Both the position numbers and the translations under genes were made by a program. The notes beneath the pieces are model-generated. The model was given only the letters and a program-made list of their open reading frames with translations. It made no database searches and was not told where the DNA came from. Source: Alphaproteobacteria bacterium (GTDB lineage: Bacteria > Pseudomonadota > Alphaproteobacteria > DSM-16000 > Inquilinaceae). Taken from it: a stretch of DNA of 64,000 nucleotides. Positions 22,373 to 36,055 of this stretch are shown here, in pieces. The stretch lies in assembly GCA_028277405.1 (NCBI GenBank), contig JANQGH010000055.1, positions 124,001 to 188,000 of the forward strand, read 5' to 3'. Numbering within the stretch: the first letter of the stretch is position 1; each line of letters opens with the position of its first letter.

Positions 22373-23479
22373 CTAAAGTGCGGTCAGGTGATTGTCCCAG
22401 TGGGCGATGGGCGCGATTGGGCCGGCCAGCGGCTGAAGGTGGCCGGTTGCGAGGTCAAAGCGCCACAGGCCGCCGGTGCCGCTTGACAGCGCGAACGTGC
22501 CGGCCGCGCCGCCGGGGGCGATGCCGCATCCGTCGGCGATCGACACGCTGGTGCGAAAGCGCCCGTCGGTTTGCCAGAAGGTGAAGAGGTTGCCGCGCGG
22601 GCTGGAGACGCCGAAGCAACTCCCGTCGCGGTCAAAGGCGACGCTGCCGCAGTAGTTGGCCATCGCTGTTTGAACGGGGTCTGGCGCGTTCAGGAATTCC
22701 AGCCCGTGGCGGTCGTTGACCAGCGCGATCAAAGGAGGTGTTTCGGTCGCGTCGCCTTGATACTGCATGACGACCGCGACCGTGCCCTCGCGGCTGACGG
22801 ACAGGTGCCGGCTGCTCAACAGGCTAAGCGTCTGCGGTATCTCGATCCGATGGGCCAGATCGCCGGTTTGGCTGTCGATAAGGCCAAGGTTGGGCGCCAT
22901 CGTATCGAGATTGAGCGGCTCGCGCCCGCTGTCCGGATGGGTCAGGATCCCGCCATTGGCGACCACCAGTGTGCGGCCATCCGGGTGCAGCACCAGTTCG
23001 TGCGGTCCGATGCCGTGGGACCGCCATTCCCCAAGCCGGCGATAACCATTGACGGCGTCGTAAACGCCAATGCGCCCGTCACCGCTGTCGAACGCGTTCT
23101 CGGTGGTGAACAGGACGGCGCCGTCAGCCGAGAAGCAGGCGTGCCCATAGAAGTGCCGATCCGGCTGGGCGGCAATCTCGTGAACCGCGCTCAGGGTCGG
23201 CAGATCGATGACGGTGACGAACCGCCCGGCGCGTCGGGCGCAGAGTACCGCCGTCCTGCCATCCGGGCTGACCGCCGCAGCGTGCCCGCGCGCCGGCAGT
23301 TCGTGGGCAAGGCGGGTGCGACCGGCATCGTCGATCACCGCTGCGTGATGGATCATGCCGGCATCGGCTCCGCCGCTCATGTACCAGCCGGCCCTGCCGG
23401 TGTCGGTGGCAAGGCTTGGGCTCACGGGCAGGGAGGCGGCGGCAGCGGTCGCCAGAAACGCCCGCCGCGACAGAGCCAT
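22373..23479 (-). CDS. DUF1513 family protein (Tat-exported, iron-operon associated)
   Basis: 368 residues. It opens with a twin-arginine signal (S-R-R-A-F-L-A-T, then an Ala-rich h-region ending at about residue 25). The body is WD/beta-propeller-like with repeated G-R-x(4)-V/A-strands (PDGRTAVLCARR, HPDGRTLVVANGG), typical of DUF1513. This family is regularly the last gene of imelysin/di-heme operons, and here it starts 3 bases past the imelysin stop. Periplasmic; role in iron handling inferred from context only. Confidence 0.88.
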   Translation of the reverse strand: MALSRRAFLATAAAASLPVSPSLATDTGRAGWYMSGGADAGMIHHAAVIDDAGRTRLAHELPARGHAAAVSPDGRTAVLCARRAGRFVTVIDLPTLSAVHEIAAQPDRHFYGHACFSADGAVLFTTENAFDSGDGRIGVYDAVNGYRRLGEWRSHGIGPHELVLHPDGRTLVVANGGILTHPDSGREPLNLDTMAPNLGLIDSQTGDLAHRIEIPQTLSLLSSRHLSVSREGTVAVVMQYQGDATETPPLIALVNDRHGLEFLNAPDPVQTAMANYCGSVAFDRDGSCFGVSSPRGNLFTFWQTDGRFRTSVSIADGCGIAPGGAAGTFALSSGTGGLWRFDLATGHLQPLAGPIAPIAHWDNHLTAL

Positions 23480-23482
23480 GGG

Positions 23483-24556
23483 TCAGTCGCCGTCCAGGCT
23501 GTTGAAGCCGAGATTGAGGTTCAATGCCGGTCCAACCTCATCCGCCCAGATCCGCCGTGCCTCGGCGACATGCTGACCCAGCGTGACGAGGTTGGCCCGC
23601 TGATCCGGATCCGCCACCAACTGGTCGATCGGCTGGTCGCGCAACAGTTCCGCCAGCGCAATCGCGGCGTCCAATTCCGCGATGACCCGGTCAGCGATGT
23701 CGACGCCGCCCGGGGCGTCGCGCAATAGGTCGGCAAATCCGGTCTGGTCACCATTCTCAGTCAGATCGCGCAAGGTCGCCAGGTTAACGCCGATATTGCG
23801 CAGGGCACGGCCGCTGCGCCAGTTCTCCGCCAGCCGCGGACGCGCCTGGTCAGCGCTCTCGCCAAGGGGGGCGGCCAGCTTGCGCGTCAAGATCAGCTCC
23901 AGTTGCTCAAAGGCCGCCTGAAACATGGTGACGGTGAGTGCAGCGTCATCAGGCAGAGCCGCGGCTGGCGCTTCGGGATCGGACCACGCCGCGCCGAGAT
24001 CCGCGCCAATGGCTTCAAGATTGGCCGCAATCGCGATGCCCAAGGCGCAGGTGTAGGACTCCGGCGCCAAACCGTCGCCCTCGAACAGCAGCCGCTCCAA
24101 CGCGGGCAACCCTTGCAAGGCGACACTGGCCGAGGCCAGCACCTCAGGGTCGAGCAGGTCGTCGCGCGGTTCGTTCAACACGCCGGCAAGTTGGCGCCCA
24201 ACCGTGTTTCGGCTGTCCGGCCAGAAATGGACGCGCACCGGCCGCATAAACAACGATTGCGGGCCGAAATTCACCCAGCTCACCGCCATCCACCCATCAT
24301 AGGTGTCGTGATAGGCATCGAAGACCGTGTCGAGACCGCTTGTCTCCGTCACGCAATAGCCGTCCAAGGCGGCGGCAAGGTCCCGCGCGGCGATGGCAAA
24401 GGCCTCATGCGCAGGCGCGATCTGGTGCGTGATGATCGCGTCGTTAAGCTCCGCGTAGCGTGCTCCTTCCGGCGCCGTTTGCGCGGCCGCAAACGGCGTC
24501 ATGAAGCCGAGGCTGAGCGCGGTAATCGTACTGATTGCGATGCGCGGATGTTTCAT
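23483..24556 (-). CDS. Imelysin-family periplasmic protein (second paralogue)
   Basis: 357 residues with a Sec signal peptide (hydrophobic core about 8-24, A-A-A-Q cleavage). Helical imelysin/M75 fold. The GxHxxE signature of the family is replaced by G149-L-P-A-L-E154: the His position is Pro. This form is typical of the second imelysin of iron operons as far as I recall, so it is probably a subgroup trait. It lies between the di-heme oxidoreductase (10 bases) and the DUF1513 gene (3 bases). Thought to bind iron or haem in the periplasm. Confidence 0.87.
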   Translation of the reverse strand: MKHPRIAISTITALSLGFMTPFAAAQTAPEGARYAELNDAIITHQIAPAHEAFAIAARDLAAALDGYCVTETSGLDTVFDAYHDTYDGWMAVSWVNFGPQSLFMRPVRVHFWPDSRNTVGRQLAGVLNEPRDDLLDPEVLASASVALQGLPALERLLFEGDGLAPESYTCALGIAIAANLEAIGADLGAAWSDPEAPAAALPDDAALTVTMFQAAFEQLELILTRKLAAPLGESADQARPRLAENWRSGRALRNIGVNLATLRDLTENGDQTGFADLLRDAPGGVDIADRVIAELDAAIALAELLRDQPIDQLVADPDQRANLVTLGQHVAEARRIWADEVGPALNLNLGFNSLDGD

Positions 24557-24566
24557 TTGGCCCCCG

Positions 24567-26072
24567 TCAAAGCGAGTTGAGGAACGTGAGCAGTGCCGCG
24601 CGTTCATCTGGCGTCATGGCGATGAAGGTATCGCGCTGTTCTTCGGCTTCGCCACCGTGCCAGAGGATGGCCTCCGTCAGGTTGCGCGCCCTGCCGTCAT
24701 GCAGATAGAAGGTGTGATCGTTGACCATCTCGGTCAGGCCGATGCCCCATAGCGGTGCAGTGCGCCATTCCTGGCCCGAGGCCTGGCCGTCGGGTCGGTT
24801 GTCCGCCAGGCCCGGCCCCATATCGTGAAGCAGCAGGTCGGTGTAGGGCCAAATCAACTGGCGGGACAGGGCCTCCGTCGAGGCGTCATCCCGCGTCAGG
24901 TGGCGGCTGACATGGCAGGCGTCGCAGCCGACTTCGTAGAAGAGTTCACGTCCCGCCAGCACCGCCGGGTCGTCGACATTGCGCCGCGCCGGCACGGCGA
25001 GATGCGCGGTGTAAAACTCCAGCGGTTCCATCAGCGTCGCGGGGATCTCGATGCCGTCGCCGTTTTCGATATCTCCGTGGATGGCGTTGCGACAGTCCGC
25101 CTGGGCCTCGGTGCAATCGCCCCAGGGTGACGGCGCCAGCGGGCTCGACAAGCCGATATCGCCGGCAAAGGCGTGGGCGTTTTGCTGGTTCAACGTGGGC
25201 TCGTTCGATTTCCAGCCGAACCGGCCCAGCGCCAGACCGTCGGCCTCGGTGCTCCACACCCAGTTCGGCCGGCCGGAGATGCCGTCGCCATCCCGATCGT
25301 CGGGGTCGGCCAGCGCGAGGATGCGCTCTTCCGGTATGGCCTCCAACAAGCCAAGCCCGATCATGGGCGGCGCCACGCGCACCGACATCATGACGTCCGG
25401 CGACAGCGGCCCGTAGGCCGGGTTGGCGATTGAATAGGTCGGCTCACGCAAGGACGCGACCTCGCCGCCGTTCATCTCCACCGGTGTTTCTGTCCACTCG
25501 GTATGGATATGCCCTTCGGCCGGCAGGTTTGCGATGCCGAGATCTTGTAGCTGACCACCATAGGTCGGCTCCGGCAGGCTGTTGACGCGTCCCTCGGCCA
25601 ACAAGGCCCGCTCTTCGTCGGTCGTGGGCGGCACGCTGAGCCGCATGAGAATGGACTCGGCATTGTCTTCGGGGAAGTTCGCCGCCGGCGGATGGCCGCG
25701 CCCGTCGCGCAGGTGACAGCTTTGGCAGCCGCGCGAGTTGTACAGCGGCCCCAGCCCGTCCGATGCGGCCGTCGATGACGGTGCCGTCACCCACAGGCGC
25801 CGAAACACCGCATTGCCGATGTTGAAATCGGCGCGTTCGGCAAAGCTGAGATTCGCCGCCGGCTGCGAAAACGCATTGCGGTTAAGCGGCCCTCGAACGG
25901 TGCCCGCGCCGCCGGAGTTGGTTTCGTACCGCTCGGCACGATCGAACGGCGGCGAGGGGGTCAGGATGTCCAACTGCTGCGCGACCGCGGGCACGGTGAA
26001 CATCAAGACGATTGCTGCGATTACCTTGATCTCGGGGGGAAGATTTCGGCGAAGTCTTCCGGTGGATACCAT
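24567..26072 (-). CDS. Di-heme c-type oxidoreductase (DHOR family)
   Basis: 501 residues with an N-terminal signal anchor (hydrophobic 16-31, A-V-A-Q). Two haem c sites are seen: C116-Q-S-C119-H120 and C383-D-A-C386-H387, far apart as in MauG/CcpA-like and thiol-oxidoreductase-type di-heme proteins. A G-G-A-G-T motif is present near residue 54, and Asp/Gly-rich calcium-like stretches (DPDDRDGDGISG, 256-267) follow. In this operon type it works in the periplasm beside imelysins, probably as a redox partner in iron acquisition. It ends 10 bases before the second imelysin. Confidence 0.9.
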   Translation of the reverse strand: MVSTGRLRRNLPPEIKVIAAIVLMFTVPAVAQQLDILTPSPPFDRAERYETNSGGAGTVRGPLNRNAFSQPAANLSFAERADFNIGNAVFRRLWVTAPSSTAASDGLGPLYNSRGCQSCHLRDGRGHPPAANFPEDNAESILMRLSVPPTTDEERALLAEGRVNSLPEPTYGGQLQDLGIANLPAEGHIHTEWTETPVEMNGGEVASLREPTYSIANPAYGPLSPDVMMSVRVAPPMIGLGLLEAIPEERILALADPDDRDGDGISGRPNWVWSTEADGLALGRFGWKSNEPTLNQQNAHAFAGDIGLSSPLAPSPWGDCTEAQADCRNAIHGDIENGDGIEIPATLMEPLEFYTAHLAVPARRNVDDPAVLAGRELFYEVGCDACHVSRHLTRDDASTEALSRQLIWPYTDLLLHDMGPGLADNRPDGQASGQEWRTAPLWGIGLTEMVNDHTFYLHDGRARNLTEAILWHGGEAEEQRDTFIAMTPDERAALLTFLNSL

Positions 26073-26119
26073 GCGCGCCTAGCTCACTGCGGGGTTACGG
26101 TTCATCGATCGACAGCCAG

Positions 26120-26154
26120 GTGCGCATCCCACACCGACGTGGTGGGATGCGCAC
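26120..26154. terminator. Perfect 13-bp hairpin between imelysin and di-heme genes
   Basis: Arms 26120-26132 and 26142-26154 are exact complements (gtgcgcatcccac / gtgggatgcgcac) with a 9-base loop. It sits in the 118-base gap between two leftward genes. No T-tract follows on the minus strand, so it is more likely a stabilising or attenuating RNA structure that sets different levels of the first imelysin and downstream genes than a classical terminator. Confidence 0.6.
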
Positions 26155-26190
26155 ACCGTCGATGGCTCGTTTACGGGATCGAGCGGTCGA

Positions 26191-27465
26191 CTAATGGAAG
26201 ACGGCGTCCGGGTCGTCCAGGCTGTCGGAGCCCTCGAAGGGGCCGATCTGCAGATCCAGCGCGACGACCACCTCCTCAAAACCCGCAGCCTGGTCGACCA
26301 GACGGTCGATCACCGCCTGCAGAACGGCGTTGCCGTCGTCATTGCCCTCGGCCAGCATCTGGTCGTAGGCCGTGCCGCCTTCGGCCGTTGCCACCATCGC
26401 CTGCATGGCCGACGTGGTTGCCGACATGAGATTGAGAATTGTGGTGTCCAGCTCTTCGGAGTTGGCGGCCACCAGGTCGCTCATGGACGCACCTTCGACG
26501 ACCGACCCGTCGGTTCGCACATACCGTCCGGTGTAGACGGCGGTCATGCCGACCTGATTGTAGTAGTGCGAGTTGTGGGTGTTGTCGGCGAAGCAGTCAT
26601 GCTCCTCTTCCGGATCATGCAGCAGTAGGCCCAGCTGCATGCGTTCGCCCGCCAACTCGCCATAGGACAAGCTGCCCAGGCCGGTGATGATGGCCGAGGG
26701 CCCCGCTGTCTCGGGGTCCGCCGTGACTTCGGCGCGCGCCGCACCGCCCTCGGCCCAATTGTCGACCATCTCCTCCAGATCGCTGATCAGCAGGGCCGAT
26801 GCGGAAACCAGAAACTCGGCCCGCCGGTCGCAGTTGCCGCCGGTGCAGTTGGCGGTGTCGAAGTCGGTTGCCGGCCGGTTTCCGGCGCCCGGCCCCGTGC
26901 CGTTCAGATCCTGGCCCCAAAGCAGGAACTCGATGGCGTGATAGCCGGTCGCGACATTGGCTTCCACGCCGTCGACCTCATGCAGATCGTCCTGCAACAG
27001 GGACGGCGTGATGCTGGACGCGTCGATCGTCGTGCCGCCGAAGGTGAACTGTGGATTAGCCACGACGTTGGCGGTGTAGAACATGTTCTCGTCGCTGGCG
27101 TCGCCATAGTTGGAGACGTCGACATAGTCGATCAGGCCCTCATCGAGCGGCCAGGCGTTCACGCGCCCCTCCCAATCGTCGACGATCGGATTGCCGAACC
27201 GGTACACCTCCGTCTGCTGGTAGGGCACCCGCGCCTCGATCCAGGCCTGGCGCGCCGCGGCCAGGTTGGCCTCGGTCGGCGTGCTGACCAAGGTGCCGAT
27301 CGCTGTGTCCAGGATCCGCGCCGTCGCCAGTGAATCGGCGTACATCGCATGGGCGATATCGGCGTAGGTGGTCATCACCGCCGCTGGGTCGGGCTGTGCC
27401 TGGGCAACTGCCGATGGAGCAATCAGGGCCACCGCAACAGCGGCTGTAACCGATAAGCGACGCAT
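26191..27465 (-). CDS. Imelysin-family periplasmic protein (first gene of iron operon)
   Basis: 424 residues from the ATG at 27465 with GGAGA 8 bases upstream. It has a Sec signal (hydrophobic 5-22). The imelysin signature is intact: G174-Y-H176-A-I-E179 within ATGYHAIEFLLWG, plus a C-T-G-G-N-C pair after it. This is the canonical iron-regulated imelysin (ICMP/IrpA-like) form. A Fur-like box lies 61-79 bases upstream, so expression should rise under iron limitation. First gene of the leftward operon with the di-heme protein, the second imelysin and DUF1513. Confidence 0.92.
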   Translation of the reverse strand: MRRLSVTAAVAVALIAPSAVAQAQPDPAAVMTTYADIAHAMYADSLATARILDTAIGTLVSTPTEANLAAARQAWIEARVPYQQTEVYRFGNPIVDDWEGRVNAWPLDEGLIDYVDVSNYGDASDENMFYTANVVANPQFTFGGTTIDASSITPSLLQDDLHEVDGVEANVATGYHAIEFLLWGQDLNGTGPGAGNRPATDFDTANCTGGNCDRRAEFLVSASALLISDLEEMVDNWAEGGAARAEVTADPETAGPSAIITGLGSLSYGELAGERMQLGLLLHDPEEEHDCFADNTHNSHYYNQVGMTAVYTGRYVRTDGSVVEGASMSDLVAANSEELDTTILNLMSATTSAMQAMVATAEGGTAYDQMLAEGNDDGNAVLQAVIDRLVDQAAGFEEVVVALDLQIGPFEGSDSLDDPDAVFH

Positions 27466-27525
27466 GCGAAATCTCCGTGCCTGTCCGCAAATAGGAACCA
27501 TTCGCGTTCTTAGCTCGGAGTTCTT

Positions 27526-27544
27526 GAGAATGCAATCCATTATC
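27526..27544 (-). promoter_or_regulatory. Candidate Fur box upstream of the imelysin operon
   Basis: On the minus strand the sequence GATAATGgattgCATTcTC matches the 19-bp Fur consensus (GATAATGATAATCATTATC) at 13 of 19 positions, with one half-site perfect and the other at six of seven; flanking T and A also fit. It is 61 bases upstream of the imelysin start codon. Fits the known iron control of this operon type. Confidence 0.6.
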
Positions 27545-27696
27545 ATGTGGCCAGATGGATGACGGTTGACAGGTTTGCTGGCGTCAGGTGAGACCGCTCA
27601 GCCTGTGCGTCGTGCCAGCTTTGGCCTTGGCCGATCGGGACGGCGATCGGCAGTTTTCGGCTGGCGTCTTAAGGAGGGCGCGGTTTCCAGTCTGGT

Positions 27697-28735: not shown

Positions 28736-30874
28736 CTAAGCGGGTGTTCGCTCCGTCGCCTCTACCGTGGCGGGTGCTGCCAGTTCGCATTTATACTTTG
28801 CAGCCAGGCTGTCGCCGGAATAGGCCTGCAGCTCGATCCTGCGCGTCTGCAGACCGGCGTTTGGAATCAGGATCTTGGCACAGCCCTCACCATCCGCAAT
28901 GCCGCCGCCCGCGGGCCGGTCGTCCACATAGGCGTAGAGCGAATCGAGACCGACCATCCGCGACGTAACCGTGATCCTGCCGTCGATGCGATCGACCTGA
29001 ACGTCCAGGCTGCGCCGCGGCATGTCGTTGAGTTGCTTGATCGCGAAATCCATCAGGTCGCGGTTGCCTTCGGTCAGGTCGCGATAGGTCGGCCGGTGCC
29101 AATGGTCGGCGACGACGCCCAGCTCCTCAACGGGTTCGCCGGCGTTCTTGCCAACCCGAAGGCAGCGCCGGACCGCGAAGCGCAACTGGGTGCCTTGCGG
29201 CAGTTGACGGACCTCCGGCGCCAGGTCCGACGCCCGCTGGGTCAAGCGAAGATGGCGCCAGACATTGCCGCCTCCGGCTCCGGTGGTCGGATCGACGCCG
29301 ATTACGGGGCCAATCTCGTGGTCCTGGAAGCCGGCGGCGAAGATGTCGGCGGAACTGTAGCTGCCCGCGCTGGTGATCAGCACGACAGGCCCGTAATACT
29401 CCTGACCGATCCTGTTTGCGATCACGGGGCTGGTCAACGGCGCGCCCGTTGAATACAAGCCGCCCGTCGCGCGCGCGATATCGATCGACCCGCCCCAGGT
29501 CTCTTGAAGGCGTTTTCGCCATCTGAGCGCGGCGAACCCGATATCCTCCTGCGGGTGGGTCAATTGGTCGGTCAAGCGCGACGACACGAACTGAAACGGC
29601 TCCGGCGTTACGGTTTTCGGTGTCAGGAGTTGAAGCAGGGATTCCGCCGATTGGATTTCGCCACCGGGATTGTCGCGAACATCGATGATCAGTCCCGATT
29701 GCGGCATTTGGCCAAGCAGGCGCCTGAATTCGGGGACAAACCGCTTGTAGTGGTCCAGAAACGCGCGAATGCGGATATAGCCATAGTCAACGTCTCCGCG
29801 CCTTTCGATCCTCGCCTCCAGCTGTCTCGGCAGGGCGGACCGCAGCGGGTCCGCCCGATTGGCATTCAACGCGGGGCCCCTGACGCCTTGAGCCGCCAGG
29901 CGCATCGTTTCAGCCAAATGCTGCTGGTCGTTCGCGCGGGCCGTTTCTTCGTCGACCACCTTGTCGTGTCGGAAAAGCCGTCGCCGCGTCAGGTTTTCGA
30001 TGGCCGTGCGCTGGTTGACGGCGAGGCGGTCTTCCTCTTCCAACGGCGGATCGTCGCTGTCGTCCTCCACGCCGTCGGGCTCTGCCTCGTCGCCGAAATC
30101 CTCGTCGGACTGTTCGTCGAACAGCCACACCGCCTGCAGGCCGATGGTGAATTCCGGCAGCCCTTTCAGGCGCAGCAGCCGCCATGGCATCCTGATCTCG
30201 TGATGCTGGTTGTTTGCCTCGTAGCCGACAATCACCCAGGCGCCGTCCGGCGGCAGCGAACAGCCGAGCCATCGAACGGTGATGTAGAGCAGCCCGAGGG
30301 CCATCTGGGCGGCCGGATTGGAGCCGTTCTCCCGTTCCGCGTTGCGCCTGACCGCACGCTGCATGGGAATGCCGTTCCAGGAGGTGATCTCGACCCCCGG
30401 CCGGAAGGTCGGGTGGTCGAACCCGTCCAAGGTCGCCGACACGATGAACATCCGTTCGCCGGCCTCGTCGTAGCAGGCCTCGACCATAAATGGCAGGAAG
30501 GCGACGAGGTCCGCGAACGGCGGCGGTGGGCGGTAGGCGGTATGGCTGTCGCACAGGCTTTTCAGGGCGAGCATGAACTCCTCGTGAAAGGCCTGGTGGT
30601 CGAGCGTGTCCAACCGCCCGCGCAGGATTTTGAGGCGATGCACCGCGTCCGCCGGACGACGCGTCTTCTTCAGCGGCCGGTGAGCATAAAGCTCGGTCAG
30701 CACGATCAGCGTCTGATCGATCAGCAGCGCGCGATCGTCCAGCGACAGGCTGGACGTCATGTCTTCAAGCTCGTCGATGTCGTGGATTGTGCCCAGCTTC
30801 TGCAGTGCTGACAGAAACTGAGGGCTCTGCGATGGGTCTTCCGTTTTTGGGGCCGGTTGGCTCGAGTCGGTCAT
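28736..30874 (-). CDS. Cytosolic S41-like (C-terminal processing protease family) protein
   Basis: 712 residues, GGGAGAG ribosome site, no signal peptide or membrane helix. An N-terminal helical region (about 1-130), a PDZ-like middle (PGVEITSWNGIPM near 165-180) and an acidic low-complexity linker (about 250-285) precede the S41 core: GYIRIRAF, LIIDVRDNPGG, VVLITSAGSYSSAD. The nucleophile should be Ser507 (S-S-A-D510). The Lys expected 25 residues later in the CtpA dyad falls on Gly532, so the catalytic base differs or is absent. The C-terminal 120 residues are unassigned. Starts 27 bases after the diiron-protein stop, hence same transcript; may process the divergent peptide (inference). Confidence 0.82.
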   Translation of the reverse strand: MTDSSQPAPKTEDPSQSPQFLSALQKLGTIHDIDELEDMTSSLSLDDRALLIDQTLIVLTELYAHRPLKKTRRPADAVHRLKILRGRLDTLDHQAFHEEFMLALKSLCDSHTAYRPPPPFADLVAFLPFMVEACYDEAGERMFIVSATLDGFDHPTFRPGVEITSWNGIPMQRAVRRNAERENGSNPAAQMALGLLYITVRWLGCSLPPDGAWVIVGYEANNQHHEIRMPWRLLRLKGLPEFTIGLQAVWLFDEQSDEDFGDEAEPDGVEDDSDDPPLEEEDRLAVNQRTAIENLTRRRLFRHDKVVDEETARANDQQHLAETMRLAAQGVRGPALNANRADPLRSALPRQLEARIERRGDVDYGYIRIRAFLDHYKRFVPEFRRLLGQMPQSGLIIDVRDNPGGEIQSAESLLQLLTPKTVTPEPFQFVSSRLTDQLTHPQEDIGFAALRWRKRLQETWGGSIDIARATGGLYSTGAPLTSPVIANRIGQEYYGPVVLITSAGSYSSADIFAAGFQDHEIGPVIGVDPTTGAGGGNVWRHLRLTQRASDLAPEVRQLPQGTQLRFAVRRCLRVGKNAGEPVEELGVVADHWHRPTYRDLTEGNRDLMDFAIKQLNDMPRRSLDVQVDRIDGRITVTSRMVGLDSLYAYVDDRPAGGGIADGEGCAKILIPNAGLQTRRIELQAYSGDSLAAKYKCELAAPATVEATERTPA

Positions 30875-30901
30875 TGTTCTCTCCCGCGTTGGACCGCGCG
30901 G

Positions 30902-31555
30902 TTAGGGCGTTGTCAGTCCGTCGATACACTCCGCCAAGAGGTGTGCCGTGTTCGCCATGCTCATGCCGATCAGGCCGGCCAGCGCCGGGGTCAGCGGCAT
31001 TTGGTCGAGTGCGGCGTTAAACGAGGCCATATGGTCGTGATCCGCCTCGCCATGCATGCGGTAGCTGTCGAACGCCGCCTCCGGCAGTCCGCTTCTACGC
31101 CTGATTCTCTCGATGTGCTCGACCGACGGCGGATTGCTCTCAAGCACGGCGATGTAGCCTAAGACGGCCACGGGGTGGTGATGGTAGATCCAGTAGTACT
31201 GGGCCCCGACCATGGACGCGACACGGGGCAACGGCGTCCGGGCAAGCACGGCCTCGCGATCGGCTCCCGCCGCGCTCAGGTCGTTCAGCAGCCAGTCGTC
31301 ATGCTCCTGCTCTTCGGCGATGTGCTCATCGAGATAGGTCGCAAGATCCGCGCACAGCCGGTCGGATTGCTTGCTCGCCTGATCGCGTGCCGCCACCATC
31401 AGCGGCACGCTCGCGCGAATGATCTGGTGAAACAAGATCATGAAGGCGATGAACGCCTCCGCCGCATCGTCACGCTGCCAGTGCCGCTGCAGGGCTTCGG
31501 CAAGTGGACGGCAGGTCAACTGCATCTTGAAGTGCAAGACTTCACTTTGCGTCAT
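30902..31555 (-). CDS. Iron-containing redox enzyme (heme-oxygenase-like diiron, HDO) family protein
   Basis: 217 residues, all helical, from the ATG at 31555. Metal-binding helices show H78-IAE81-E82-xx-H85 and H168-xxx-D172-xx-H175, the arrangement of HDO-type diiron oxidases (relatives of CADD, SznF and UndA); further candidates are His43 and His125-127. Such proteins often tailor small molecules or peptides. Its start is 169 bases from the divergent start of a 63-residue peptide gene, and the S41-like protease follows on its strand. The pairing suggests peptide oxidation, but this has not been shown. Confidence 0.75.
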   Translation of the reverse strand: MTQSEVLHFKMQLTCRPLAEALQRHWQRDDAAEAFIAFMILFHQIIRASVPLMVAARDQASKQSDRLCADLATYLDEHIAEEQEHDDWLLNDLSAAGADREAVLARTPLPRVASMVGAQYYWIYHHHPVAVLGYIAVLESNPPSVEHIERIRRRSGLPEAAFDSYRMHGEADHDHMASFNAALDQMPLTPALAGLIGMSMANTAHLLAECIDGLTTP

Positions 31556-31724
31556 TGCTAATGTCCGCCGCCTGAACTGGTTTGTGATTTTGATGTCTGG
31601 CCAACGAAAGCATAAAGCCGCTGATTCTTGCAATGATGCTGGGCTGGTTCCGCGATTATCGCTTCCAATACGCCGGTAGACTGCTCTAGGATCGGCCACG
31701 CTCGATTGAAAACCGGAGGGGTCA

Positions 31725-31916
31725 ATGAACAGCAATCCATCCAATGTCGACCGTTTGGTCGCCGCAGGGGTCCTGGACTCGGACTCACTTTCCGATGAGA
31801 TGTGGCAGGCACTCGACTCGCGGCTGACCAGTGAAGAGGTCGACGCGTTGATCTCGATAAAGGGCAAGTTCAATCTGCAGCCATGGGGTTTCTCCGGAGA
31901 CGGTGGGTTCCTCTAA
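31725..31916 (+). CDS. Small leader-plus-tail peptide, candidate RiPP precursor
   Basis: 63 residues with a strong ribosome site (GGAGGGG, 5 bases before the ATG). Residues 8-48 form two amphipathic helical segments (VDRLVAAGVL, LTSEEVDALISIKGKF), which look like the leader domain of small proteins that I recall as labelled aroma-sacti cluster domain in public databases. The last 12 residues (LQPWGFSGDGGFL region, 51-63) switch to a Trp/Phe/Gly/Asp-rich, helix-breaking tail without Cys. That split, the divergent HDO enzyme and a terminator directly behind the gene fit a modified-peptide precursor. It could also simply be a small structural protein. Confidence 0.6.
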   Translation: MNSNPSNVDRLVAAGVLDSDSLSDEMWQALDSRLTSEEVDALISIKGKFNLQPWGFSGDGGFL

Positions 31917-31931
31917 GGGCCGCCTGACCGG

Positions 31932-31966
31932 CACCGGTCGCTTGGGAGCGCCGGTGATGTGTTTTT
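31932..31966 (+). terminator. Rho-independent terminator after the peptide gene
   Basis: CACCGG-t-CGC (31932-31941) pairs with GCG-CCGGTG (31948-31956) with one bulged T and a short loop, and is followed by atgtgttttt. It lies 16 bases past the peptide stop, so the peptide is probably made from a short monocistronic RNA. Confidence 0.65.
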
Positions 31967-32059
31967 GATGGACTATTCGATCGTCGGCGTTCGGGAGGTT
32001 CGAGCGCCGGCACGATATTGAAGCGTCGGACTTTGGCGATTATCGAAGACCATCTGCGA

Positions 32060-32083
32060 CGCCCGGTTTTCCGGGCGCTTTCT
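32060..32083 (+). terminator. Short GC hairpin before the cyclase/ATPase gene
   Basis: CGCCCGG (32060-32066), loop tttt, CCGGGCG (32071-32077), then ctttct. It lies 15 bases before the next start codon, so it is either a second weak terminator or a 5' leader structure of the regulator mRNA. Confidence 0.45.
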
Positions 32084-32097
32084 GCCGTGCTCGGACG

Positions 32098-34767
32098 ATG
32101 AACGGGCACGAACCGGCCAGCGCGCGCCTGCCGTCCGGCATCCTGACGAGCCTCTTTACGGATATCGAGAGCTCGACGCGCCTGCTTGAGCATTTGGGGC
32201 CGTCCTACGGTGCGGCGCTGGCACGCCACTTCGAGATTCTGAGAAGCGCGCTATCCACGCATGACGGGCATGAGGTCGATGCCATAGGCGACGCCTATTT
32301 CGCCGTTTTCGATCAGCCGCACCAGGCTCTGGCGGCGGCGGTTGACGCCCAACGCATGCTGGCGGCCGAGCAATGGCCCAACGGTGCGGCGTTGCGGATC
32401 CGCATCGGCGTGCACACGGGCGAGTTCTCGCCCGATAAGAACCGCGAACTCGGCTATGTCGGTCTTGACGTACACCGCAGCGCCCGGATCAGCTCGGTCG
32501 CCCATGGCGGACAGATCGTGTTCTCCGGCGCGACCCGAAAACTGCTTCAGGATTCGGCACTGCCGGATGGCGTCGCGATCAGGGACTTGGGAACCCATCG
32601 CCTGAAGGATCTGCGGTATCCCGAAACGCTCTATGACGTGACCATCGAGGGGCTGAACAGCAACTTCGCCCCCATCGACACGCTGGACAACCGGCCCAAC
32701 AATCTTCCCGCCGCTGCAGTGGAGATCGTCGGCCGGGAGCGGGAAATCGAAAGGGCGCACGGGCTGCTGCGCGATCGCGATACAAGACTGTTGACGCTCA
32801 CCGGACCGGGCGGCGTCGGCAAAACGCGTCTGTCGCTCGCCATCGCCGGCGGCCTTCTTGAAACCTTTCCGTCCGGTATCTTTCAGGTGCCGCTGTCCGC
32901 TGTCACCGAACCGACATTGGTGCCACCGACGATCGCGCAGACGCTGGGCGTTCAGGAATTTCCCGGACAGTCGGCGATCGACGGGTTGAAGCACGCCATC
33001 GGCAACCGGCACATGCTGCTGGTCATCGACAATTTCGAGCAGGTCGTCGATGCCGCCGGAACGCTGGTCGATCTCCTGCAGACTTGCGAAAACCTGAAGC
33101 TGCTGGTCACCAGCCGCGAAACGCTCAACGTTCCGTACGAGAGCGAGTTGGCGGTGTCGCCGATGACCTTGGCGGCCGTGGATGAGACCGATGATCCGGA
33201 TCGGCTTATGCAATCGCCCGCCGTCCGCCTGTTCGTCGAGCGCGTCAGGGATTTCCAGCCGGACTTCGCAATCACGCCGGAAAACGCCTCGGCGATCGCG
33301 CAAATCTGCAGGAAGCTCGATGGCCTGCCGCTCGCCATCGAACTGGCCGCGCCGCGCCTGAGGTTGCTCAGCCCCGACGATCTTCTCAGACGGCTGACCC
33401 AGAGCCTGGACGCGCTGCAGGCCGGACGCCGCGGCGCCGACCAGCGCCACCGGACGCTGCGTGACGCTGTGAACTGGAGCTACGATCTGCTCCCGCCCGG
33501 TGAGAAGGCGTTGTTCCGACGCGTAGCTGTCTTCGTTAGCGGTTTTCAGATCGAGGCGGCCGAAGACATCTGCCACGATTTGGATCCGGCCGGTTTCGAC
33601 GTTCTCGAAATGCTGTCGTCCTTGCTGAGCAAGAGCCTGCTCAGACGCGAGACGGCGGACGGGCTGCCTCGGCTTCACATGCTGGAAACCGTACGCGAGT
33701 TTGGCCTCGAGCGGCTGCGCCAGAGCGACGAGTATGACGGGTATCGCAAAAGGCACGGCGATCATTTTCTGGCTCTTGCCGAGACATTGGCGCCGGATCT
33801 GCTGGGGCGCCAACAGCGCAGCTCCGTTGGACGCTTGTTGACCGAGACGGACAATCTGCGTGCGGCCCTGGTCTGGGCGTCCGAACAGCCCGAACCGGAG
33901 GCGACCGGTCGCTTGCTTGATGCGCTGCTCTGGCTGTGGGTGCCGCGAGGCCAGTTCACCGAAGGCAGCGCCTGGGCGGATCGCGCGGTCGCCCGGTTCG
34001 CCGGCGCACAGCCAAGCCGGTCGCTCGGGCTGATCTACAAGGTCGCCGGATGGCTGAAGATGATGTCCGGCGATTATCCTGGCGCGCTGCCGCTTTGCCA
34101 GCGCGCTTATGAGGTTTTCGGCCAAGTCGGCGACGAGGTGGAAGCCGCCCGCGCGCGCATGATGTATGGCATCACGATGGCGGCGACCGGCGCCGCTGAA
34201 GAGGGCATAGCCCAGGTCATGGGGGCGCTGGAGCAGTCACAGGCCTTGGACGATCGGATCGGCGCCGCTGTGACATTGATCGCAATCGGCGAAGGCGCGC
34301 GACATGGCGGTGACCTGGCGACCGCTCGCGACTTCTACGAAAAGGCCCTGGCGCTGTTGCGCAGCCTGGACAACACTTACTGGACCGCCGGCCTGCTGCT
34401 CAATCTGGCGCAGTTGAAGCTGCGTGACGGCGCGGTGGCGGATGCCTTGGAATTCCTGGCCGAATCCATCGAATTGGGCCGCGAGTTCGACTATCCCATG
34501 GTCATCAATCTTTACGTTGTGATCATGGGTGCGGTTGCCCACGCAAAGGGCGACGCGGACCAGGGCGCGCGTCTGTTCGGTGCCGCCGACGCGCTGTTGC
34601 GCACGCTCGGGGCGGCGCTCGAACCACCGGATCAGGCGGAGTTCGACCGCTTCAAGGACGAGGCGAAGGCCGCGTTGGGTGAACAGCAGTTCGCGGCCCT
34701 GTTCGCCGAGGGCGCGTCATGGTCGCGTGACGAGACGATCGCGGCGGCCACCGCGCTGCACACCTGA
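32098..34767 (+). CDS. Class III cyclase-like domain / NTPase / TPR regulator
   Basis: 889 residues. Residues 15-185 form a class III nucleotidyl cyclase homology domain with metal Asp22 (FTDIESST) and Asp65 (GDAYFAVF). The purine-binding Lys is Asp61 and the transition-state Asn is His126 (VHRSAR130), so cyclase activity is doubtful. An NB-ARC/AAA-like NTPase follows, with a Walker A GPGGVGKTRL near 235-245, a Walker B LLVIDNFE near 310, and an L-V-T-S-R-E sensor. The C-terminal half is TPR-like helices (about 560-870). No HTH domain is seen. Architecture as in mycobacterial-type signal ATPases. The ATG at 32098 follows the peptide gene on the same strand; it may sense or control that locus (inference). 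Confidence 0.85.
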   Translation: MNGHEPASARLPSGILTSLFTDIESSTRLLEHLGPSYGAALARHFEILRSALSTHDGHEVDAIGDAYFAVFDQPHQALAAAVDAQRMLAAEQWPNGAALRIRIGVHTGEFSPDKNRELGYVGLDVHRSARISSVAHGGQIVFSGATRKLLQDSALPDGVAIRDLGTHRLKDLRYPETLYDVTIEGLNSNFAPIDTLDNRPNNLPAAAVEIVGREREIERAHGLLRDRDTRLLTLTGPGGVGKTRLSLAIAGGLLETFPSGIFQVPLSAVTEPTLVPPTIAQTLGVQEFPGQSAIDGLKHAIGNRHMLLVIDNFEQVVDAAGTLVDLLQTCENLKLLVTSRETLNVPYESELAVSPMTLAAVDETDDPDRLMQSPAVRLFVERVRDFQPDFAITPENASAIAQICRKLDGLPLAIELAAPRLRLLSPDDLLRRLTQSLDALQAGRRGADQRHRTLRDAVNWSYDLLPPGEKALFRRVAVFVSGFQIEAAEDICHDLDPAGFDVLEMLSSLLSKSLLRRETADGLPRLHMLETVREFGLERLRQSDEYDGYRKRHGDHFLALAETLAPDLLGRQQRSSVGRLLTETDNLRAALVWASEQPEPEATGRLLDALLWLWVPRGQFTEGSAWADRAVARFAGAQPSRSLGLIYKVAGWLKMMSGDYPGALPLCQRAYEVFGQVGDEVEAARARMMYGITMAATGAAEEGIAQVMGALEQSQALDDRIGAAVTLIAIGEGARHGGDLATARDFYEKALALLRSLDNTYWTAGLLLNLAQLKLRDGAVADALEFLAESIELGREFDYPMVINLYVVIMGAVAHAKGDADQGARLFGAADALLRTLGAALEPPDQAEFDRFKDEAKAALGEQQFAALFAEGASWSRDETIAAATALHT

Positions 34768-34912: not shown

Positions 34913-36055
34913 CTATGCAGGGATGGCCTTGCCAATGGTGGTGACGTTGCCCTGGCTGTCTTTGCGGTCTTCCCAGTAGAGGCCCAGTTTCTTCACGGCC
35001 GGCGCGTCTGACACGCAGTAGATCACCGCGTCTTCCGTGTTCGAGGCGTTCACATGCTCGTGCCACATATAGGTCGGCACGCAGAAGATATCGTCCTCCT
35101 CCCACTTGTATTCCCGGCCGTTGATGATCGTCGAGCCGCTGCCCTCGATCACCACATAGACGCTGGACGAGGTGTCGCGGTGCGACAGGGTGTGTTCGCC
35201 CGGCCGCAGCAACTGCATCGAGAAGTTCTGTGTCCTTTGGATCGGGCCGCCATCCATGATGTTGACGTAGTCGACGATCACGCCGTCATACGGATCGCCG
35301 GCCTCGTCACGCACCGCGTTCAGCGCCCGTCTCGTGTCGGCGTATTTGAAGTGGAGTTGCGGCGAGCCGTTGTCGTTGCCGATGACCTGCTCGGCAAACC
35401 GCGGCCGCACGCCGCCGACGGCAAAATGGCGCTGCGAATAAAGCTGCGATCGGGTCGGTGACTGCATCTCGCGCGCGACACCGTTTTCCGTGTAGTCGAA
35501 GCCGAATTTCCCGGCGTTGAACAGCATGGCAACCGGGATATCGAGCATATCGACCCAAACCATCGGCACGTCGCCTTCGTTGCCGTGATCGTGCCAGGTT
35601 CCCGATGGCGTGGTGATCAGGTCGCCGCGCTCAAGATAGGCTTTTTCGCCCTCGACCGTCGTGTAGCCCTTGCCGTCGCTTTTGAGCAGCATCCGGCTCG
35701 CCGCGGGGCTGTGAATATGGGGATGGAAGACCTCGCCGGGCATGTAGACCGAGTAGGCCACGAACTGGGTGTTGGTCGTGGCCGGTTTCGTCATGTCCAG
35801 GCCGGGGTTGTGCAGGATGATGCCACGGCGGTCGGCAAGCTCGTGGGGTACGATCTCGCCGGCAAGCATCACATGCTCTTCAAAGTCCTTCCAGCGCCAG
35901 ACATGGGGGACTTCGCGAACGCGCGGTTCGCGAGGCTCCATGTCACCTTGGATCGTCCAAAAGCCGAAGGCATCCAGCGCGCGAAGTGCCGCATACATCT
36001 GCTGGCGCTTCTCTTCGATCTCGGTGTCTTCCGTGATGGCATCAAGCTTGGTCAT
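34913..36055 (-). CDS. Gentisate 1,2-dioxygenase-like bicupin
   Basis: 380 residues with two cupin domains. The first has the His cluster 111-115 (H-P-H-I-H) followed by R121, an E-G-E-K/G-D-L-I-T-T-P-S turn and W154-H-D-H-G-N, the same layout as gentisate and 1-hydroxy-2-naphthoate dioxygenases. The second cupin (about 275-360) is intact as well, with LSHRDTSSSVYVV and PTYMWHEH. It should open an ortho/para-hydroxylated aromatic ring using Fe(II). It is divergent from a dienelactone hydrolase across an AT-rich regulatory gap and near an FAH-family hydrolase, the usual downstream step. Confidence 0.87.
   Translation of the reverse strand: MTKLDAITEDTEIEEKRQQMYAALRALDAFGFWTIQGDMEPREPRVREVPHVWRWKDFEEHVMLAGEIVPHELADRRGIILHNPGLDMTKPATTNTQFVAYSVYMPGEVFHPHIHSPAASRMLLKSDGKGYTTVEGEKAYLERGDLITTPSGTWHDHGNEGDVPMVWVDMLDIPVAMLFNAGKFGFDYTENGVAREMQSPTRSQLYSQRHFAVGGVRPRFAEQVIGNDNGSPQLHFKYADTRRALNAVRDEAGDPYDGVIVDYVNIMDGGPIQRTQNFSMQLLRPGEHTLSHRDTSSSVYVVIEGSGSTIINGREYKWEEDDIFCVPTYMWHEHVNASNTEDAVIYCVSDAPAVKKLGLYWEDRKDSQGNVTTIGKAIPA

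Follow-up and report, generated by a model that had tools for sequence, protein, structure and literature searches.

A YcaO-less candidate RiPP locus in an alphaproteobacterium that pairs a small peptide with a predicted heme-oxygenase-like diiron enzyme

Described pathways and the layout of the locus

Heme-oxygenase-like diiron oxidases/oxygenases (HDOs) carry out chemistry that few other enzymes manage, and about a dozen have been characterised, nearly all of them on small molecules. The 3H/3C ligand set has been defined for these enzymes, nearly all characterised members act on fatty or amino acids, and in five substrate-bound diferrous structures of the 3H/3C type Fe1 is ligated by the substrate itself (PMC13108848). 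We found one genetic precedent for the involvement of a heme-oxygenase-like enzyme in RiPP biosynthesis, namely VarO of the thiovarsolin pathway, in which deletion of varO removes a dehydrogenation that takes place either on the peptide or after proteolysis (PMC6511847). This pathway is actinobacterial, has a repeating precursor and requires YcaO-TfuA, and its seven genes, reported to be sufficient, include neither an S41 protease nor a cyclase/STAND regulator. A heme-oxygenase-like gene has also been mentioned, in one sentence that gives no function, in TfuA-YcaO clusters of Sinorhizobium (PMC8120280). Daptides, in turn, are RiPPs modified at the C terminus, by the DapB/DapC oxidative decarboxylase, an aminotransferase and a methyltransferase, with no HDO (PMC12670281).

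The locus described here lies in a 64,000-nt stretch of alphaproteobacterial DNA (the window), with the following features:

28736-30874, minus strand: gene for a predicted cytosolic S41-family protease (712 aa; PF03572)
30902-31555, minus strand: HDO gene (217 aa; PF14518)
31556-31724, no strand: divergent intergenic region between the HDO and peptide genes (divergence kept in 9 of 10 loci)
31725-31916, plus strand: predicted precursor peptide gene (63 aa; ATG start, GGAGG upstream)
31875-31913, plus strand: putative core/tail, peptide residues ~51-63 (Trp and C-terminal Phe-Leu)
32098-34767, plus strand: gene for a cyclase-like/NB-ARC (STAND)/TPR regulator or sensor (889 aa; Pfam)

All four genes are present and arranged as an earlier note on this DNA had described, and, as it had also stated, no YcaO, radical SAM or lanthipeptide enzyme occurs among the window genes scanned (~15-41 kb). 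Its claim of no metabolic neighbours was too strong, since a gentisate-dioxygenase-like cupin gene follows the regulator gene at 34913 and an imelysin/DHOR operon flanks the other side. The operon (22373-27546), encoding an imelysin, a DHOR di-haem protein, a second imelysin and a DUF1513 protein, is of a type commonly tied to iron uptake. No transporter or immunity gene was seen near the cluster, promoter and terminator scans of 31400-32150 returned nothing, and the window's HDO/peptide intergenic region showed no inverted repeat.

Like the thiovarsolin pathway, the window appears to combine a RiPP precursor with a heme-oxygenase-like enzyme, VarO being likened to the latter by description only; unlike that pathway, it has an S41 protease and a cyclase/STAND regulator, lacks YcaO-TfuA and encodes a precursor that looks unrelated. 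With YcaO and TfuA both absent from the cluster, the locus falls outside the thioamidated (TfuA-YcaO) RiPPs. The S. fredii loci collected in this study (L013-L016) fit the published description of the Sinorhizobium clusters and share the peptide, HDO and regulator families with the window, which differs from those clusters in being without YcaO-TfuA, in carrying the S41 gene and in its peptide tail. Part of the wider family has therefore already been noticed in Sinorhizobium (PMC8120280); for the YcaO-less HDO/S41 form, no description was found in the literature searched, in which subscription journals were mostly outside coverage.

The diiron enzyme and the peptide encoded beside it

The HDO matches PF14518 with 51.1 bits and starts at ATG 31555, as judged from homologues and the upstream sequence, the TTG start at 31873 given in the ORF list being unsupported by homologues. 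Its 3H/3C ligand set is complete (E82-x2-H85, E139, H168-x3-D172-x2-H175) and invariant in 11 homologues, except that D172 is replaced by Glu in one Myxococcus copy. The AlphaFold2 model (pLDDT 94.6) resembles 3dde, CADD (CtCADD) and HrmI, with VIA Z values of 22.2, 19.8 and 18.6, respectively; heme oxygenases are also among the best PDB matches, and UndA is among the Foldseek matches. From ligand set and model together, the window enzyme is a predicted heme-oxygenase-fold diiron oxidase/oxygenase with a complete 3H/3C site. In fold and ligands it resembles UndA, CADD, AetD, HrmI and MboA (PMC13108848), whose substrates are small molecules or the proteins themselves, whereas a ribosomal peptide would be the substrate here. 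Among enzymes with both a solved structure and a known function, AetD (E 0.024) and MboA (E 0.15) come closest by sequence profile, matches so weak that they assign no reaction to the window enzyme.

Together with related HDOs, the window HDO forms one clade apart from other HDOs (support 100/100), whose members are rare and scattered. Relatives from Variovorax and Vibrio (~30% identity) were considered and set aside, as they fall outside the clade; on Vibrio and Variovorax plasmids (L017, L018) this different HDO clade sits in an operon of thermostable hemolysin, AMP-binding, HDO and SDR genes. Similar HDO matches, some annotated as AMP-binding, occur on Pseudoalteromonas plasmids.

The 63-aa peptide (MNSNPSNVDRLVAAGVLDSDSLSDEMWQALDSRLTSEEVDALISIKGKFNLQPWGFSGDGGFL) matches the NCBIfam RiPP precursor leader domain NF045560 (aroma_sacti_dom) over residues ~7-50 with 30.2 bits against a cut-off of 30, a margin of 0.2 bits. 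The end of this match, at residue 50, was taken as the boundary between leader and tail, the latter reading ...IKGKFNLQPWGFSGDGGFL. Seven of the ten members of the peptide family match the same leader model, and in their alignment the leader is conserved and the tails are variable. In the S. fredii group the dN/dS of the peptide is ~0.3-0.4, indicating purifying selection and therefore a translated, constrained gene. By these features the peptide is predicted to have the anatomy of a RiPP-type precursor, that is, a leader followed by a variable tail. Membership among sactipeptides related to StsA was rejected: the StsA sactipeptide model gave 22.8 bits, below its cut-off of 75, the tail has no Cys, and no radical SAM gene is among the neighbouring genes scanned.

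Peptide and HDO recur together. The HDO scan of the genome collection returned three relatives of 44-46% identity, in Rhizobium altiplani (L002), Seongchinamella unica (L003) and Myxococcus (L004), and in all three the HDO is adjoined by a small member of the peptide family; a plasmid search added the Sinorhizobium fredii locus, where the peptide is likewise present. A search of 395 Rhizobiaceae genomes with the HDO yielded five further loci, and in each of them the HDO-adjacent peptide was the top match (E 1e-7 to 3e-24) to a profile built from the first five peptide sequences, which makes this a prospective test, the loci having been located through the HDO only. In the reverse direction, a profile of the ten peptides picked out five of the 243 Rhizobiaceae genomes searched; these are precisely the HDO carriers, and the matches lie at the HDO locus. 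Because this profile was built from HDO-adjacent peptides, the independent evidence in that result is the absence of the peptide elsewhere. Adjacency thus holds in 10/10 lineages, namely the window and nine others from Rhizobiaceae, a gammaproteobacterium and a myxobacterium. The system is rare, being found in 1/17 genomes of the window's order and 1/385 drawn from its class, in 1/294 of Seongchinamella's order and in 1/145 of Myxococcus's order, each time in the seed genome. The two genes are divergent in 9/10 loci; in Myxococcus (L004:6819-8684) two HDOs, one of them the copy with Glu for the Asp ligand, flank a single peptide gene on one strand.

The earlier note had expected peptide, HDO and protease to co-occur in related genomes, which is true of the peptide and the HDO throughout and mostly untrue of the S41 protease (2/10); the regulator co-occurs for the most part (orthologous in 8/10). 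Since the layout recurs in nine other lineages, it is more than chance. A fortuitous neighbourhood of unrelated genes would accommodate the poor conservation of S41 and the ordinary metabolic genes on either side, but is contradicted by recurrence in ten lineages with a conserved divergent arrangement, and we regard it as most improbable.

We consider it likely that the locus is a RiPP cluster of an HDO-defined family, in a YcaO-less form, in which the HDO modifies the peptide tail. The earlier note's proposal of a small ribosomal peptide system tailored by the HDO is, in this respect, well supported by the RiPP leader domain and the recurrence in ten lineages; its expectation of a co-occurring protease held only in part. 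Several points weigh against our reading: (i) the narrow margin of the leader-domain match; (ii) the absence of a transporter near the cluster; (iii) the lack of S41 in 8/10 loci; and (iv) the fact that well-characterised HDOs all act on free small molecules or themselves.

Peptide tails, YcaO-TfuA and the proposed reaction

Six of the ten loci (Seongchinamella, S. fredii, G162, G169, G245 and G386) carry YcaO-TfuA, in each case between peptide and regulator, and the pair is absent from the window, R. altiplani, G165 and the short Myxococcus contig; the window therefore belongs to a larger family, of which it represents a branch without YcaO. In our preferred reading, the HDO is the signature maturase of the family and, in the window, the only recognisable one.

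The ten tails end in GGFL, PTML, PMMF, GGMF, ICGL, ICGF, ICGL, VCGL, AMGL and TCGF, so that [G/M/F][L/F] terminates 10/10. When the last 16 residues of eight lineage representatives were shuffled, the probability was ~2e-6 for Leu or Phe in the last position of all and ~2e-11 for [G/M/F][L/F], values that are indicative only because the residue classes were chosen after inspection. The C-terminal Leu/Phe is the sole strongly constrained position of the tail. An end of the form [C/M]-G-[L/F] is seen in the tails of 5/6 YcaO loci and in none of the three YcaO-less alphaproteobacterial tails, which, the window's included, have a Trp in common (LQPWGF, FEWPI, FDWPI). R. altiplani and G165 have the shortest tails.

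These distributions bear on whether the window is a diverged thioamide RiPP, which has either lost its YcaO-TfuA or is served in trans by a pair encoded elsewhere. The presence of YcaO-TfuA in 6/10 related loci is in keeping with this, as is a TfuA-YcaO pair in the window's own genome, on contig C38 (L005, G000:C38:254345-255286), distant from the cluster. The YcaO of that pair belongs, however, to another subfamily (110 bits versus ~288 for the cluster type), and the Gly-[L/F] ends after Cys or Met that typify the YcaO loci differ from the ends of the YcaO-less alphaproteobacterial tails, making this explanation quite unlikely.

Also unlikely is a scheme in which the substrate of the HDO is a free amino acid or another small molecule and the peptide is a chaperone, inhibitor or carrier for the enzyme. 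Such a scheme would agree with the fatty and amino acid substrates of nearly all characterised HDOs (PMC13108848) and with the sequence-profile similarity, weak as it is, to AetD and MboA, which work on small molecules, but the YcaO-less loci are without partner enzymes for a pathway of this kind, the leader family and the leader and variable-tail anatomy are of the RiPP precursor type, and YcaO-TfuA in six loci requires a peptide substrate.

If the HDO does modify the tail, the helical leader of the 63-aa precursor would recruit the enzyme and the short tail would be oxidised with iron and O2, which would probably amount to a kind of peptide remodelling that has not been described before. The most likely site would be the C-terminal residue, by desaturation, hydroxylation or UndA-like oxidative decarboxylation; alternatively, the enzyme could act on the Trp of the YcaO-less tails. 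We favour the C terminus because substrates ligate Fe1 in the substrate-bound HDO structures reviewed and because this is the most constrained end of the peptide. By analogy with those structures, the carboxylate would be an obvious candidate Fe1 ligand, and we put chemistry at this end forward tentatively; modification at the C terminus would be a feature shared with the daptides. The broader proposition is of a RiPP class matured by one HDO alone, which would alter the C-terminal Leu/Phe or the tail Trp, for instance by oxidative decarboxylation or a nitrile-type rearrangement; we hold it with somewhat more conviction, yet still as a conjecture. Both reactions have so far been mostly small-molecule chemistry, and a leader-guided HDO, if the proposition is true, would provide a diiron oxidase for peptides that is genetically encoded and can be programmed. 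HDO action on ribosomal peptides, at which VarO hints, becomes directly testable with two short genes, and the peptide/HDO pair offers a class marker for genome mining that YcaO-based searches would miss.

The S41 protease and the regulator

The S41 protein matches PF03572 with 71.2 bits (cut-off 24), and its N-terminal sequence, read by eye, has no signal peptide. A gap of 27 nt separates its gene from that of the HDO, with which it is likely to be co-transcribed. Only the window and Seongchinamella loci carry the gene, directly behind the HDO in both, and the two proteins are 41% identical; read by eye, H111, S507 and E583/E584 are conserved between them and make up a candidate catalytic set. 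An AlphaFold2 model, built on this two-sequence alignment, reached a pLDDT of 36. No S41 relatives were found at E 1e-8 in seven other HDO-bearing genomes, nor in the S. fredii locus when checked locally, and among 13 genomes tested S41 co-occurs only with this HDO. The protease is thus an accessory part of the system; judging by its gene position, it may take part in maturation or leader removal, in which case it would trim the modified peptide in the window and Seongchinamella and the other lineages would have to rely on a housekeeping protease. S41 relatives on plasmids have unrelated surroundings, and on a Mesorhizobium onobrychidis plasmid a gene annotated as an S8 peptidase (L047:5231-9160) also spans an S41 domain akin to that of the window protease.

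The regulator combines Guanylate_cyc, NB-ARC and TPR domains (Pfam), with no recognisable DNA-binding domain among its Pfam matches. Orthologues are present in 8/10 loci, and the remaining two hold cyclase/AAA/TPR-type proteins of other make-up. Class III cyclases normally have a catalytic Asn; at the expected position the window protein has His (YVGLDVHRSAR), and its cyclase-like domain may therefore be degenerate. The protein would either control the locus or sense its product, and it could be a sensor of the latter.

A sensing role leads to another account of the system: after modification by the HDO and cleavage by S41, the peptide would serve as a signal, between or within cells, that the TPR/STAND protein perceives, and not as an antimicrobial or other effector. 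This account is compatible with the proposed HDO chemistry and differs from it in purpose. A TPR-bearing cyclase-like/AAA-type protein in the locus of every lineage (orthologous in 8/10) fits it well, as does the fact that no transporter or immunity gene was seen; against it, NB-ARC/TPR proteins are common regulators, and neither a known receptor family nor a DNA-binding domain was identified for this one. We regard a signalling module as possible but doubtful, and retain tail modification by the HDO as the preferred reading whatever the product is for.

A role in defence was dropped because PADLOC gave the window genes no match, the sole match to defence families being a TIR domain in the Seongchinamella regulator. 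In that protein (L003:1980-5102) the TIR domain is N-terminal and fused to the cyclase-NB-ARC-TPR arrangement, unlike at the other loci.
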